Virus record (IMG/VR): IMGVR_UViG_3300048924_000191
Location: 126,001 to 190,000 of that record
Length of the DNA: 64,000 nt
Direction: 5' to 3' (one strand)
From: a virus
Position numbers and translations under genes: made by a program. Positions 11,094 through 29,465 of this stretch are shown here, piece by piece. Numbering within the stretch: the stretch's first letter is position 1; each line of letters starts with the position of its first letter. Below the pieces are notes generated by a model that was not told the DNA's origin, ran no database searches, and saw only the letters and a program-made list of their open reading frames with translations.

Positions 11094-12386
11094 TCAGTCC
11101 TGGAAGACGGACTCTTCTACCAGCGTGAGGACGGCGTCCAAACGAGCGAGCAGGTCGGCTTGCAGACGACTCAGACGATCGCAGATGCGACCGATCTCAC
11201 TCACCAGTTGGGACTCCAGACGCAGCAGGTCAGCGGTGTTGATATCGCTGTCCAGTTCGTAGTCGTATTCGACCTCGACGTCGTCAGTCGACATGTTGGT
11301 CAACTTCTTGATGGTCACACCGACGCTGGCGTAAGACACCTTGACGGCGTCCGACACTTTCTCCAGCAAACGGATCTGTTCGCCAATCACCCGATCCAAC
11401 TCCTGACAGTATTGCAGGATGGTTTCGGTAGACAGGGATTTGATCTGATCGGTGTACTTGACCACGTCGGTAGCCAACGTGCCATCTTGTTGCAGGTGGA
11501 ACGCCATCAGGCGACCCATACGCTCTTCGTTGCGGGCGTACTTGACGTTACCCAGCAGCGGGAGTGGTTGGGCCTTGATAGCCGCATCCAGGCGCTGGAA
11601 CAGATCGTCCTGCTGGATACCTGCGAACAGGTCATGCGGAAGATCTTGCGCGCTGATAGCCTGCACCAAATGCGTCTTGACCGTGTGGTCACAACGACGG
11701 TGGTATTCCATCACGATGTCGGTCAGGGTACGACTGGTTGTGGCGAACGCAGTCAGGTCGTGAGTCGGTGCCTGAGAGTAGTTACTCCCATTGACCAGTA
11801 ACTCAAGAACCTTTTGCGGGAGACGGATGTCTACACCACCACTGCCTTTGCGAGACCGCACCTTGTCGCGAACACGACGGGTACGATTCTGAAGACCGAC
11901 GGTGCTTTGGTTCAGACGAACGAACGACAGTGCCAAACGACCACCGGTGCGAGCAGCGGCGGCGGAGAACGCTTTCACAGCAGAACCGAACCAATCGGAC
12001 AGCGACTCCAGCGACACTTCATCAACACCGCCGTCACTCCCCATGGCAAGCTTGGGGATGGTGGTCTCCAAGACTTGTTCTGCGGTGGCGATGTTCATGT
12101 TAGCCGTAGCGACGAAAGCATCAGCAGCAGCGGCTGGCATGTCTTCAGCGGCTTTGGCAGCGGCACCGATAGCGGTAACCACAGCAGCACCGGCTTCCAT
12201 GTCCTTGGCCGAATTGTTCGTCTGGACTTCGTGCAGAGCTTCAGCCATCTCACTGCGTTCTTCGCGCGCTTCTTGCACGTCTTCGACAGTGAGTTCGTGG
12301 GAGGGTGGTGGGATCACCACTTCGGAGGCTTCGAGCGAGAGTTTACCGCGCAACGCCTCTTGCAGAGTAGTTTTGAATACAGACAT
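11094..12386 (-). CDS. Internal head protein, S-x-E processed family
   Basis: 430-aa member of the internal head protein family. An Ala/Glu-rich presumed propeptide (1-124) ends in VSLES (124-128), an S-x-E site. An amphipathic helix (DWFGSAVKAFSAAAARTGG, about 131-149) and a strongly basic stretch near 165-182 (RTRRVRDKVRSRKG) follow. The C-terminus is helical and acidic. It lies 3 bases downstream of another member at 12390-13556. Cleavage is inferred from phiKZ. Confidence 0.75.
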   Translation of the reverse strand: MSVFKTTLQEALRGKLSLEASEVVIPPPSHELTVEDVQEAREERSEMAEALHEVQTNNSAKDMEAGAAVVTAIGAAAKAAEDMPAAAADAFVATANMNIATAEQVLETTIPKLAMGSDGGVDEVSLESLSDWFGSAVKAFSAAAARTGGRLALSFVRLNQSTVGLQNRTRRVRDKVRSRKGSGGVDIRLPQKVLELLVNGSNYSQAPTHDLTAFATTSRTLTDIVMEYHRRCDHTVKTHLVQAISAQDLPHDLFAGIQQDDLFQRLDAAIKAQPLPLLGNVKYARNEERMGRLMAFHLQQDGTLATDVVKYTDQIKSLSTETILQYCQELDRVIGEQIRLLEKVSDAVKVSYASVGVTIKKLTNMSTDDVEVEYDYELDSDINTADLLRLESQLVSEIGRICDRLSRLQADLLARLDAVLTLVEESVFQD

Positions 12387-12389
12387 GGA

Positions 12390-13556
12390 TCACCTGTAGG
12401 TTTTAATGGAGGCGTAGCAGTATTGAATCGCAGCGCGGCAGACCGACATCGAGTGGATCAGCAGCGAACGGGTGGGTTGTTGCAACCAGTGCGTGAGGGT
12501 GTTCACCGTCTTGCGCACTGCGTCCATGTCAGACGGAGCGAAGGAGCTCGTCTTCAGGAACGTATCCAACGAGGTACGCGAACGGTTAGCCGCTGCACGT
12601 ACACCGGAGTTACTGGACTTGGAGATGTCGTCCAACAGACTGCGGATCACTTTCGGCAGTTCGCCGATCTGACCAGGCTGAAGAGTAGTCAACGTATATT
12701 CACGTTGAACCTTCAGTTCGTTCCGACCAGTCTTCTCGAAGAGGAATCCGTGGAAGCGGAACGCGTCGATACCACGCTCACGCAGATCACCGCGTAGGTA
12801 GAACAAACTCATCCCACCCAGCAGGGAAGGAGTAGCCTGAACATTGTTGCGCTTGAAGCGATCGTACGGCGCTGCGTGCATACCGCACTGAGATGCCATC
12901 TTGTCGAACGGGATCTTGGTGATCACAGCTACCATGGCATCAGTCAGTACCTTACCGGTCTTACCACGAGCTGCGGCTTGCAGTTCAGCAGACGCGTCGA
13001 TGACTTCCTTACGGTAGTCCATCGCCATGACCTTGACCACATTGTGCAGCTGATGGATTTGAGACTCGAGCTTACCAGCGTCGTCGATCTGGATACCGTG
13101 CACACGCATGTACCGACCGATACGACCCAACTCAACGGTAGGTTCGCTAGGACGCATGCCTTTGGTGGTAGCCACCTGACGTTCCAGGAAACTCAGTTTA
13201 CGCGAGAGCCACGTAGCGGCAAGGTCGATGTTCGAGAAGAAGTCGAGCAATGCCTTGAAGAACTGTTGGAGCGCACTGATGGCAGCACGGACTACCGACG
13301 CCGCTACCGTCTTGACCGACTCCACGCTGATCTCATCCAAGGACCAGCAGTGACCGATCTCACCCGTGACTGCCGTCATCAAAGGACGGGCAGATGCTTC
13401 GAACGAAGCCTTGGGCATTTCACCGGCTTGACTGAGCAAGTCTTCAAACGCGGTGTGGGAATTCATGAATCGAGAGAAAGCTTCGAACGCGATCGTAACT
13501 TCGTGATCCGCTCTTACCAGCTCCTCGAAAGGATCTTCTTCCAGCAGCAAGTCCAT
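12390..13556 (-). CDS. Internal head protein, S-x-E processed family
   Basis: 388-aa member of the same family. An acidic N-terminus (MDLLLEEDPFEELV) leads to ASFEAS (50-55) and ISVES (76-80), both with S-x-E. A hydrophobic amphipathic helix (about 81-108) rich in Val, Ala and Phe follows, then a helical core. The ATG at 13556 follows AGGTAACC. The propeptide is shorter than in the other members. Confidence 0.74.
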   Translation of the reverse strand: MDLLLEEDPFEELVRADHEVTIAFEAFSRFMNSHTAFEDLLSQAGEMPKASFEASARPLMTAVTGEIGHCWSLDEISVESVKTVAASVVRAAISALQQFFKALLDFFSNIDLAATWLSRKLSFLERQVATTKGMRPSEPTVELGRIGRYMRVHGIQIDDAGKLESQIHQLHNVVKVMAMDYRKEVIDASAELQAAARGKTGKVLTDAMVAVITKIPFDKMASQCGMHAAPYDRFKRNNVQATPSLLGGMSLFYLRGDLRERGIDAFRFHGFLFEKTGRNELKVQREYTLTTLQPGQIGELPKVIRSLLDDISKSSNSGVRAAANRSRTSLDTFLKTSSFAPSDMDAVRKTVNTLTHWLQQPTRSLLIHSMSVCRAAIQYCYASIKTYR

Positions 13557-13600
13557 GAGGGTTACCTTTCACAGTAAGGCTTAGTTATACCATCTGCAGC

Positions 13601-13630
13601 ATAAAGCGGGAGCCGAAGCCCCCGCTTTAT
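13601..13630 (-). terminator. Hairpin terminator
   Basis: A 10-bp stem (13601-13610 with 13621-13630) is extended by two inner pairs and closed on the minus strand by a TTCG loop. It follows the stop of the frame ending at 13645. No long T-run follows. Confidence 0.65.
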
Positions 13631-13644
13631 GTTTTACGGCCTGA

Positions 13645-13977
13645 CTATTTCTTCTTCAGATAATCGTGGACCTCAACCAGATGGTTGAACCGTTTCTCCG
13701 AGAAGTTAGTCTTCAGGTAGACTTCCTGAAGGTGGAAGTAGTCCTCATTCCATTTCGACTTATCCGTTTCCAATTCGCGGGCGAAGGATTTCTCTTCGTA
13801 CGGTTGCCACAGGTCTTTGACCTGTTTGGCCGCGGCGCGAGCCGTCGCTTTGATATCGGCACCGGAAAGCTTGGAATTATTGAACTCCAACCGCAAGGCA
13901 GTTCTGACGAGGAGGGCGTCCGACTTCCCCGACTTATATTCACGAATGAATTTGTCGACGTTGTCGGACCCAGTCAG
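13645..13977 (-). CDS. Minus-1 frame extension of the 434-aa head protein
   Basis: 110 codons open in the -1 frame relative to the upstream gene, continuing from its last codons without a stop. The encoded peptide is protein-like and Lys-rich (ends VHDYLKKK). It has no ATG; the only early start-like codon is a TTG at 13896 without a ribosome site, which would give 83 aa. It is best explained as a frameshift extension: GGGAAAC at 13983-13977 lets ribosomes slip from GGA AAC into GGG AAA and read on, giving a product of about 544 aa. An uncorrected sequence error or translation from TTG are the alternatives. No domain recognised. Confidence 0.65.
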   Translation of the reverse strand: MTGSDNVDKFIREYKSGKSDALLVRTALRLEFNNSKLSGADIKATARAAAKQVKDLWQPYEEKSFARELETDKSKWNEDYFHLQEVYLKTNFSEKRFNHLVEVHDYLKKK

Positions 13978-13994
13978 TTTCCCGCAGCACCTTT
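13914..13994 (-). promoter_or_regulatory. Putative programmed -1 ribosomal frameshift signal
   Basis: On the minus strand the order is a Shine-Dalgarno-like AAAGG (13994-13990), 6 bases, slippery GGGAAAC (13983-13977) in phase G GGA AAC, stop TGA at once, and a 5-base spacer counted from the heptamer. A stem of GGGTCCGAC (13971-13963) with GTCGGACGCCC (13924-13914) follows: 9 pairs with a 2-base bulge. All three standard bacterial -1 elements are present at usual distances. Confidence 0.7.
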
Positions 13995-15278
13995 GTCGTC
14001 GGCGGCAGCCGGTTCTTCCTTCGCCTTGGCACCGTGGGCACCCAGGGAGGCTTTACCGAAGTTGTAGGCATCTTTACCCAGCTGCGACAGGTAGTTGACG
14101 TAGGTCGGAACCACGCCTTCGCCGGCCTTGATGATGCGGGCAGCGGTGGTAACGACTTTCGCCACGCCTTGACGCTTGGCTTTGGCATCGTCGCCTTCGG
14201 TCTTGTTGGCGGCCGCTTGGGCAGCTTTCATGACCTTCTCGGCGTCGTCCAGGTACTTCTCGGCTTTCGCCTCGGCCAGCTTCATGCGGCGACCCAGGGT
14301 CACCAGCTTACCGCCCAGAGCGGAAACTTCCGAAGGAGACAGCGGAGCGGTCTTCTCGGCGCCTGGAGAAGGCTTGGTGACGTTGAAGGTGATCTTGTCG
14401 CCGTTCAGCTTCAGCTCGGCCTTCACGCCGCCTGGCAGTTCGATGGAAGTATCGCGCAGACCCATGGAGGCGAACTTGGCTTGCCAGTTGGCATCGGTCA
14501 GGTCGTTGGCACCGACGTCGCCTTTCAGCGCGGCAACAACAGGCTGCAGGACCTTCTTCATCGGCTCGACCACCTTGGAGGTGAACTCGCCGTCGAAGAC
14601 CTGGAGGGCCTTGTCGATCGCTTGGCCAGGATTACCGCCCAGACGACCGTAACCGGTGGTCTTCAGTTCGGTTTTCTTGGCTTCGCCTTTGGTCTTGGAA
14701 GCCAGACGCTGCAGTTGCTGACCGCCGGTCACGATGGCGTCGGCGGAACGACCCATGGTGCCGAAGAACTGCTTGATGCTGGTGCGAGCGGAGTTGAAAG
14801 CCTGGACCAGAACTTTCCACAGACGGGACAGAACGCCCTCGGTCTTCTCTTCAGCTTCGGTGGTGTAGTCTTCCACCTGAGCCGATTCGAAGCTGTGTTG
14901 CATGGCCATGACTTCATCACGGACCAGGGACGACGGCAGCTCGCGAGCTTCTACCGACAGGGCAACGTTCTGGATGTACCAGCGCATACCGCTGTTGTCC
15001 AGAGGTTGACCGCCAGCGGCCATAGCGCGCAGTTGAGCCAGGTTGCTTTCCAGCGAGTCGACGGCTTCGGCGACTTTCTCGGCAGCAACGTCCGAGGCTT
15101 GCATCTTCTCGACCTTCTCGGCGGTGTCGGCGATGGCCTCTTCCAGCTCGGTGGCGGTCTCGTCGGTGACGACGGTGATTTCCTCGGCACCGAGGTAGCT
15201 GTGATCTTCATCGGACTCAGGCGCTACCGCACCCGATTCGACCGACAGCTGGTTCAACATTTTAGCGAGTTCGCTCAT
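13974..15278 (-). CDS. Internal head protein, S-x-E family, with frameshift site
   Basis: 434 aa from the ATG at 15278 (AGGAG 10 bases upstream). A very acidic propeptide (1-128) leads to SFES (129-132) and DYTTEAEE (137-144), matching the tandem members at 0-4 kb in order and spacing. An amphipathic helix (about 148-165) follows. Codon use is more G/C-biased than in neighbours (many GCC, GTC and CTG-type codons), which suggests high expression, so this may be the major inner-body protein. The gene ends in GGA AAC TGA, the slippery site that would fuse it to the 110-codon extension. Confidence 0.78.
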   Translation of the reverse strand: MSELAKMLNQLSVESGAVAPESDEDHSYLGAEEITVVTDETATELEEAIADTAEKVEKMQASDVAAEKVAEAVDSLESNLAQLRAMAAGGQPLDNSGMRWYIQNVALSVEARELPSSLVRDEVMAMQHSFESAQVEDYTTEAEEKTEGVLSRLWKVLVQAFNSARTSIKQFFGTMGRSADAIVTGGQQLQRLASKTKGEAKKTELKTTGYGRLGGNPGQAIDKALQVFDGEFTSKVVEPMKKVLQPVVAALKGDVGANDLTDANWQAKFASMGLRDTSIELPGGVKAELKLNGDKITFNVTKPSPGAEKTAPLSPSEVSALGGKLVTLGRRMKLAEAKAEKYLDDAEKVMKAAQAAANKTEGDDAKAKRQGVAKVVTTAARIIKAGEGVVPTYVNYLSQLGKDAYNFGKASLGAHGAKAKEEPAAADDKGAAGN

Positions 15279-27264: not shown

Positions 27265-27729
27265 TCACTGTTTACCGTTACGTTGAGCCTCAGCGATCGC
27301 TCGCTTAAGCTCTTCAGCTGTCTGTGCGTCTTTCTGTGCACCCGGCCTGTAGCGTTTGATCATCCGATCCAACACGTACTTAGGCCATTCCAACAGCGTG
27401 TGTACCGATGTGTTTGTCATCTCGGGGATTCGACAGGAGACGAGCTCATCCATGAGCGCATACATCTTCGATTCTCCGTACAACATCTCCGCGTCGTGAG
27501 CGCCCACTACCGACATGATTCCGTCCGGTCCATCCACCTCGCCATGAGGGAACAGGCCGTAGTCGATATCGTACGCCTCCATCAACAACAGTTGAGCCGT
27601 CATCCCGTCTGGAGCCGAATGGTTCATGATCAAATCGAACGACTCGGTACCCTCTTGGAATGGCGAGATGCCATGCCCAAAGAAGGGAGCAGCGACGTGG
27701 TGTATCGTCGTGTTCCCTTCGTCGTCCAC
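27265..27729 (-). CDS. Hypothetical protein
   Basis: 154-aa protein starting at a GTG that overlaps the upstream TAG by one base (TAGTG), so probably translated by coupling. The C-terminal 50 residues are basic and helical (VLDRMIKRYRPGAQK). No domain recognised. Last gene of a three-gene minus-strand unit. Confidence 0.6.
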   Translation of the reverse strand: MDDEGNTTIHHVAAPFFGHGISPFQEGTESFDLIMNHSAPDGMTAQLLLMEAYDIDYGLFPHGEVDGPDGIMSVVGAHDAEMLYGESKMYALMDELVSCRIPEMTNTSVHTLLEWPKYVLDRMIKRYRPGAQKDAQTAEELKRAIAEAQRNGKQ

Positions 27730-29465
27730 TACTTTCCGGAGTTCCGGATTTTGTGGCGGAGTAGGGTAAAAAACAGCTCGACCGTATTGACTTGTACCAA
27801 CGCAGGATGGTTGGCAATGTCGTCACCGGTGATCGACTTCCCGCACTCAGGGTTCGGGCAGCAGGTCTTCGGAATGGCGAACACGGCCAGGGTCATGTCG
27901 TTGATGAACTTACGGATCTCGGCAACGATACGCTGAGTCTGACCACCGTCGGCAGACAGATCGATCAGTTCCTGGTCCACCGCCTGGTCAGCGGCGTACT
28001 GTTCGTCAGGATCAGTCACGAGACGAGTCACTACGGTCTTCGGCGGAGCGTCGATGGTAGGGACGTGTTCGAAGGCCACGATCCAGTGAGCGTACGCCAT
28101 GATCAGCGCGATGTTGGCCTGACGCTCGATGAAGTCTTCACGTTCCCCGCGGTTGGCGTTGGAAACGATCAGGTCTTTCGCACCGTTGGTCAGGTTGGAC
28201 ATCCAGCTGCCGGCGATACGCTTGTACTGAGCAATGGTCGGCACTTGCAGACGCAGCTTATAACCACCGCCCAGATCCACCAGACGAGAGATGTCTGGAC
28301 GGGTCATGTCCTGGTAGTTGCGGATAGTGGCAACGTCGTGACGACCGCTGCGCTTGGTCATGAAGTTCTTCTGGTGTTCGGACACCCGTTCCCAGCGAAC
28401 GAACAGACCACGGCGCAATTGGATCTTGCGACGTACTACGGTACCGCAACCACCGTTGGACTTCAGGCAAGGACGCTCAAGAACAAAGCCGTCCGGATAC
28501 ATCGAAGCAGCTACACTACCGGCCAGAGGTTCGAGGTCTGTCAGCAGGACGACTTTCTCGAGGTCGGCTCGGTTGGTCGTACCCAGAGTGGACGAGATAA
28601 CACGGTCCAGGCAGAACTCAATCACCGGAATGTTCATGTAGATCTCGCTGGCACTCAGCGAGTACCCGAGCGTATCACGCGCCTGCTCAATCTTCTCGAG
28701 TGCGATCTTGGTCTCAAGACGCAGACCTTCGATAGCGCCTGGAGAAACGGTCTTCAGGTGCATGCCGGTACTCCACAGCGGAGTTGGGAACTCACCGGAC
28801 ATGCCAAGCGCGCCGCGCATCTTCAGACGTTCGTTATTGGAGTTCTCGAACGAGGTCTTGCCTGGAGCCAGGATGTGTTCGCCCACTTGCGGCAGGTTGG
28901 TCCACTGGTCCTGTTCGAAGAGGTCTTTACCAAGACCGTGACGCGCCATCTTCCGGAAATAGGAGATGGCAGCCATCGCAGTGCGTTCTTTCTCAGTTAC
29001 GAACAGAACGGTACCGCGATCGTCGATCGGAGCGCCCAGCAAGTGTCCACCCTGACCGACATCTACCAGTTTCTTACGTTTGGCTTGATGCCGCACGATA
29101 GTCGTGGTGATGTGGGTGTAGATCCGGTCGAGCATCTCGTGATCGTCGTTACCGGCGATGAACGAGCCTTTCTCGAGCAGCTTGTCGAGCTCTTCTTCGG
29201 TCGCTTCTTCGAAGATCTCAACACCGATGTCGATGTTGGGACTGGAGGTCATCTCGCCGCCGAAGACTTCTTCTTGCGGTTGATCTTCCAGCTCTGGATG
29301 GGTCGGCATGTTCTCGAGTTCAGCGAGCTGTTTTGCCAACTTGTCTTCGATCTCAGCTGCCGTCGGCTTGGGTGCTGATACTTGCTCTGCAGCTGGTGTA
29401 GGTGCAGCTTCGGCTGGAGTCACCGGTACTTCAGCGCCAGTATTTTCGTTTTCGTTTTCAGTCAC
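27729..29465 (-). CDS. Hypothetical protein with N-terminal Pro/Ala linker and Cys cluster
   Basis: 578 aa from a GTG overlapping the upstream stop (GTGA). Residues 1-45 are disordered and rich in Glu, Pro and Ala; 60-110 are acidic. Two Cys groups, CLKSNGGC (mid-protein) and CCPNPEC (535-541), could bind one zinc. The bulk is mixed alpha/beta. It is flanked by a coiled-coil protein before and a basic protein after. No family recognised; structural or assembly roles are both possible. Confidence 0.6.
   Translation of the reverse strand: MTENENENTGAEVPVTPAEAAPTPAAEQVSAPKPTAAEIEDKLAKQLAELENMPTHPELEDQPQEEVFGGEMTSSPNIDIGVEIFEEATEEELDKLLEKGSFIAGNDDHEMLDRIYTHITTTIVRHQAKRKKLVDVGQGGHLLGAPIDDRGTVLFVTEKERTAMAAISYFRKMARHGLGKDLFEQDQWTNLPQVGEHILAPGKTSFENSNNERLKMRGALGMSGEFPTPLWSTGMHLKTVSPGAIEGLRLETKIALEKIEQARDTLGYSLSASEIYMNIPVIEFCLDRVISSTLGTTNRADLEKVVLLTDLEPLAGSVAASMYPDGFVLERPCLKSNGGCGTVVRRKIQLRRGLFVRWERVSEHQKNFMTKRSGRHDVATIRNYQDMTRPDISRLVDLGGGYKLRLQVPTIAQYKRIAGSWMSNLTNGAKDLIVSNANRGEREDFIERQANIALIMAYAHWIVAFEHVPTIDAPPKTVVTRLVTDPDEQYAADQAVDQELIDLSADGGQTQRIVAEIRKFINDMTLAVFAIPKTCCPNPECGKSITGDDIANHPALVQVNTVELFFTLLRHKIRNSGK

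Follow-up and report, generated by a model that had tools for sequence, protein, structure and literature searches.

A probable programmed −1 frameshift at the end of an internal head protein gene in a phiKZ-like giant phage

The window analysed here, a stretch of 64,000 nucleotides, corresponds to positions 126001–190000 of a 243,378-base virus record (G000) from a phiKZ-like giant phage. It contains a gene for a protein of 434 amino acids (IP) whose last codons overlap a second frame (EXT), in −1 relative to the gene, that stays open for 110 codons past the junction to 13645; the first-pass annotation had described this open frame and it was reproduced here. The arrangement raises the question of whether EXT is translated and, if so, by which route ribosomes enter it. 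The features at the junction are the following.

13974–15278, minus strand: IP gene, zero frame, 434 amino acids, stop TGA at 13976–13974.
13983–13977, minus strand: slippery heptamer G_GGA_AAC in X_XXY_YYZ phase, the sole in-phase heptamer of the IP gene.
13645–13983, minus strand: EXT, the −1 frame extension, 112 codons from GGG AAA, stop TAG at 13647–13645.

Judged from the sequence, the best explanation, and very probably the right one, is programmed −1 ribosomal frameshifting, by which a minority of the internal head protein would be tagged with EXT.

The zero-frame product matches PF12699, the phiKZ-like internal head (inner-body) proteins, with an E of 4e-14 and 53.1 bits over residues 37–402 (Pfam profile, gathering cut-off 27 bits), and its gene is syntenic with PA10_00200, a 'putative internal head protein' of Pseudomonas phage pPa_SNUABM_DT01 (DT01). 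The gene had been described as that of a head protein; the protein is of the internal, inner-body class and does not belong to the capsid shell. In SPN3US and phiKZ, inner-body proteins undergo cleavage after S/A-x-E, and some of them reach hundreds of copies per head (PMC5694885). IP similarly contains S/A-x-E motifs (e.g. SVE-14 and AEE-144), which are putative prohead-protease sites, and shares these and PF12699 with phiKZ gp93, gp94, gp95, gp162 and gp163 and SPN3US gp53 and gp54 (paralog family A, PF12699; PMC5694885). Internal head proteins of the PF12699 type are inner-body components that are probably ejected. A search of open papers turned up no frameshift-extended member among the phiKZ and SPN3US inner-body proteins. 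In the window, three genes of internal-head type lie consecutively on the minus strand (11094–15278; 434, 388 and 430 amino acids, PF12699, the third below the cut-off).

The 3′ end of the IP gene reads GCG GGA AAC TGA, the heptamer forming the last codon pair before the stop, and the sequence and a phase scan agree with the initial observation that GGGAAAC is in the correct phase. GGA accounts for only one of the 37 Gly codons of the gene, the one located in the heptamer. G000 as a whole has in-phase heptamers at 62 of its 69,739 codon positions. With the IP protein and the codon use of the family taken as given, an in-phase heptamer would fall in the −1-open overlap with P = 0.0014 and, under the same conditioning, at the last codon pair with P = 0.0004; its presence at the end of this gene exceeds chance. 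On bacterial ribosomes AAC in the A-site is probably less slippery than AAG. G_GGA_AAC is the frameshift site of the archaeal virus HCTV-1 (PMC5009743), and for Burkholderia phage KL1 a site has been predicted at a GGGAAAC directly 5′ of TGA (PMC3483164).

The extension itself resembles a coding sequence: its coding score is 0.38, where pieces of genes read in frame score 0.38 ± 0.18 and other frames −0.23 ± 0.24. Searches by tblastn found relatives of EXT in two annotated phages only, Kosakonia phage Kc263 (30% over 109 amino acids, pairwise E 1e-19) and Edwardsiella phage pEt-SU (33% over 84 amino acids, pairwise E 4e-15), and in both a longer protein has EXT, in frame, as its C-terminal domain. 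The EXT-bearing protein of pEt-SU scores above the PF12699 cut-off (31.0 versus 27 bits) and that of Kc263 under it (17.7 bits); with the Kc263 protein as query, tblastn against the pEt-SU genome aligned 97% of the query length. EXT is thus found in nature as a tail of internal-head-type proteins. The 13 kDa of EXT are modelled by AlphaFold as a compact six-helix domain (pLDDT 88.7, pTM 0.81) whose fold begins at residue 7 after the junction; this model was obtained from a two-sequence input and replaced a poor single-sequence model. Foldseek with the EXT model retrieved a 333-residue entry, the length of the Kc263 protein, with a TM of 0.80 and the pEt-SU protein with a TM of 0.74. Pfam, PHROGs and the PDB gave no function for EXT, and no PDB structure matched. 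The codon use, the predicted fold and the homologues together indicate that EXT is a real domain. A further Foldseek match to the EXT model is the viral protein A7KUX9 (BFVD, 171 amino acids; TM 0.75, E 7e-5, 25% identity).

Close relatives were obtained from IMG/VR with alignments of two conserved neighbour genes plus DT01 homologues as queries. They are 60–69% identical in the two neighbour genes, and their IP orthologues are 34–42% identical to that of G000. Direct IMG/VR scans gave no matches, whether the query was a single sequence (IP, EXT or one of the neighbours) or an EXT alignment of three rows; EXT was not found in genome contigs, nor IP in plasmids. Among 17 related viral records scanned, EXT is present in one only, L037 (IMGVR_UViG_3300006051_000001), where its frame is again −1 with respect to the IP stop. 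The two EXT sequences share 52% amino acid identity over 107 residues and are constrained, with a dN of 0.44 and a dS of 1.85 (NG86; dS near saturation). In L037 the IP tail contains GAC CCA AAG and with it the canonical heptamer C_CCA_AAG, a sequence with a high propensity for shifting in E. coli (PMC5009743); this is exactly the point, nine codons upstream of TAA, from which the −1 frame is open. A hop from AAG to AAA was considered for L037 as well and dropped as not needed. The −1 frameshift first proposed from G000 is thus supported both by a relative with its own heptamer and the same −1 relation and by the fusions in Kc263 and pEt-SU.

The sister of L037, L040, has an IP protein 96% identical to that of L037 and is without EXT, its terminator hairpin following directly after the IP stop. 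At the corresponding position it has GATCCAAAG (GAT CCA AAG), which is no heptamer, and its −1 frame meets a TGA in AAC GAT GAC where L037 has AAC GAG GAC and no stop. In these two sequences the domain, the heptamer and the open −1 frame are present or absent together. This pair also bears on a sequencing or assembly indel, by which the true gene would be an in-frame IP–EXT fusion. One additional G or A at GGGAAA would join the frames, and in-frame fusions do exist in two distant phages; however, the base runs at the site are only 3 long, no gene among the G000 ORFs with DT01 homologues is split, and the zero-frame end of L037 (LLKNEDK and stop) matches that of the EXT-less L040 (LLKNDDK and stop). 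Since L037, a second and independent assembly, shows the same −1 arrangement, such an error is very unlikely.

Across the nine IP orthologues compared (G000, L024, L025, L036–L040 and DT01) two in-phase heptamers were seen, both at EXT junctions (G000 and L037), against 8.1 expected from the proteins and the codon use of the family. For L037, a heptamer would occur in the overlap with a probability of 0.19 given its protein, so that this heptamer alone is weak evidence and its weight comes from the joint pattern. As a separate observation, in-phase slippery heptamers seem to be avoided in the IP family, none occurring outside the EXT junctions.

The two −1 carriers, the only ones found, fall in separate places on the IP tree: G000 stands apart and L037 pairs with L040. 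There has been more than one gain or loss of EXT, and its two carriers have different heptamers. Such a patchy distribution could also be left by recombination, EXT being an unexpressed remnant behind the IP stop. The low dN/dS and the good predicted fold argue against this, as do the open frame and heptamer in both carriers and the differences between L037 and L040 at precisely the heptamer and the −1 stop, and a remnant is highly improbable.

A further alternative is that EXT is a separate protein. The −1 frame of EXT in G000 has no ATG or GTG, and its first TTG, at 13896, lies 80 nt past the IP stop and inside the EXT domain. Ribosomes could re-initiate at this TTG, or at a CTG in the EXT frame that shares bases with the IP stop (CTGA, comparable to the widespread ATGA overlap), aided by AAAGGTG upstream; G000 has terminal overlaps of this type, with starts at −1 relative to the stop. 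Yet in L037 the −1 frame has no ATG, GTG, TTG or CTG near the junction, its first start being at +68 nt, and the TTGs of the two carriers occupy different positions within the conserved domain. This lack of a start in L037, together with the conservation of residues that precede the first TTGs, argues against initiation within the −1 frame. Re-initiation would also make the canonical heptamer at each junction a coincidence, and the homologues in Kc263 and pEt-SU are fusions; in no relative found is EXT a separate gene with a good start. Re-initiation is accordingly regarded as unlikely, if less so than an indel or a remnant, and the frameshift remains the preferred reading.

Further elements flank the slippery site and the end of EXT.

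13963–13971, minus strand: 5′ arm of the 3′ stem, GGGTCCGAC, starting 5 nt after the heptamer (folding).
13914–13924, minus strand: 3′ arm of the 3′ stem, GTCGGACGCCC, with a 2-base bulge (folding).
13990–13994, minus strand: AAAGG, putative internal Shine-Dalgarno, 6 nt upstream of the heptamer, weak and not conserved.
13600–13631, minus strand: terminator-like hairpin directly 3′ of the EXT stop (−26.8 kcal/mol, z −4.3).

Folding reproduces the 9-bp stem noted at first in G000, with an inner hairpin carrying a UUCG loop between its arms. The fold has −24.2 kcal/mol and a z of −4.1 over a chosen 58 nt, falling to −2.3 over 66 nt and −2.2 over 96 nt. Its position is not conserved, since L037 has no hairpin 5–9 nt after its heptamer and its first fold starts 11 nt downstream with a z of −1.1. 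Comparison of relatives, which had been proposed as a check, hence bears out the −1 relation and the heptamer, which L037 has in a canonical form of its own, but not the placement of the stem, for which a role as stimulator in G000 is plausible. The AAAGG had been taken as an internal Shine-Dalgarno. It is indeed present, but it is weak and badly spaced, dnaX having its Shine-Dalgarno about 10 nt from the slippery site, and it has no counterpart in L037. It corresponds to Lys-Gly codons (AAA GGT), and the tails of IP proteins that have no EXT repeatedly show dipeptides of this kind. The site shares with E. coli dnaX a heptamer, a 3′ stem and a possible upstream Shine-Dalgarno; it differs in the strength and spacing of the latter, in having its heptamer on the stop codon, in a shifted product that would be longer and not shorter, and in that only the heptamer recurs in L037. 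The label 'dnaX-type' is therefore not retained: it relies on that Shine-Dalgarno, and the stem, too, is not conserved in its position.

The terminator-like hairpin directly after the EXT stop places EXT inside the IP transcription unit. An equivalent hairpin lies directly 3′ of IP in the EXT-less relatives and 3′ of EXT in L037. At 13631–13570 (minus strand), and in L024, L025 and L036–L040, the GC hairpin after IP or EXT ends in TATGC(T/C)G without a T-run, and a TATGGTATAAC- or ATGATATAGC-like motif stands between it and the next gene, perhaps a terminator combined with a phage promoter.

In the proposed mechanism, the majority of ribosomes would terminate at TGA and release the 434-residue IP. 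In a minority, the Gly and Asn tRNAs would re-pair on GGG AAA (tandem −1 slippage at GGGAAAC), probably aided in G000 by the downstream stem, and 110 further codons would be read, so that at this presumed low efficiency the six-helix EXT domain would be added to IP. The N-terminal propeptide would target both forms to the prohead for packaging and would then be cleaved off. A small fraction of an abundant inner-body protein would thus bear EXT, and may carry it into the host on ejection. The role suggested in the first-pass annotation, in setting the position or copy number of the protein in the capsid, would be hypothetical.

Frameshift-extended head proteins are known from gene 10A/10B of T7 and T3 and from the coat genes of Listeria phages A118/A500 and PSA (PMC5009743). 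In these, similarly, a C-terminal domain is added near the end of a head gene to a minority of copies; IP differs in that it is no shell protein: it is internal, part of the inner body of a giant phage and presumably matured by proteolysis. Tail-assembly frameshifts, gp18/gp19 of KL1 (PMC3483164) and the lambda G/GT type, are also close. KL1 likewise has GGGAAAC with TGA right after it, and the ribosome would move by −1 to a frame that overlaps the first; its site, too, is predicted only. There the protein functions in tail assembly and carries another extension, whereas IP is a head protein. Finally, phage Ig-like domains resemble EXT in being optional and in occurring on different proteins in different phages, and some are added by frameshifting (PMC5009743), but EXT, all-helical in the model, is not Ig-like.

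A second −1 frameshift candidate was noticed in the window at about 27790–27265 (minus strand), with much wider conservation than IP–EXT. Here a U-run (TTTTTTTTACCC; six T in G000, G_TTT_TTT) lies near the end of a phiKZ gp077-type gene (window 27729–29465, phrog_4585; labelled in DT01 as T4 gp26-like baseplate hub assembly), with 'FFYP' or 'FFHP' in the −1 frame and a −1 ORF of about 110–150 codons after the run. The arrangement recurs in L021 (16762–17282), L024, L025, L036, L037 (6256), L039, L040, L042, L046, L048 and L049, and also in L053 (PhiPA3 gp074/gp073), L054 (Moabite) and L055 (KpLz-2_45). The two frames are annotated publicly as separate genes, and may represent a tail-assembly frameshift of this lineage.

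Frameshifted head proteins being already known, the IP–EXT case is not categorically new; what is new is the class of protein and the EXT domain. If true, it would be the first recoding event described for internal head proteins, as judged from the open papers searched, and a clear candidate case of domain capture by a phage via a heptamer adjoining a stop codon. L037 and L040 provide a natural pair that differs jointly in the domain, the slippery site and the −1 frame. Tentatively, EXT could be seen as a plug-in cargo domain behind an abundant inner-body gene, tapped via a newly made heptamer so that a set fraction of the ejected protein carries it, while in other phages a fusion in frame, dedicated to it, would serve that need. 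The domain may act in the host after ejection. The heads of giant phages contain internal proteins in hundreds of copies, and EXT, if true, would give such a protein a well-defined domain that is removable and supplied at a low dose.
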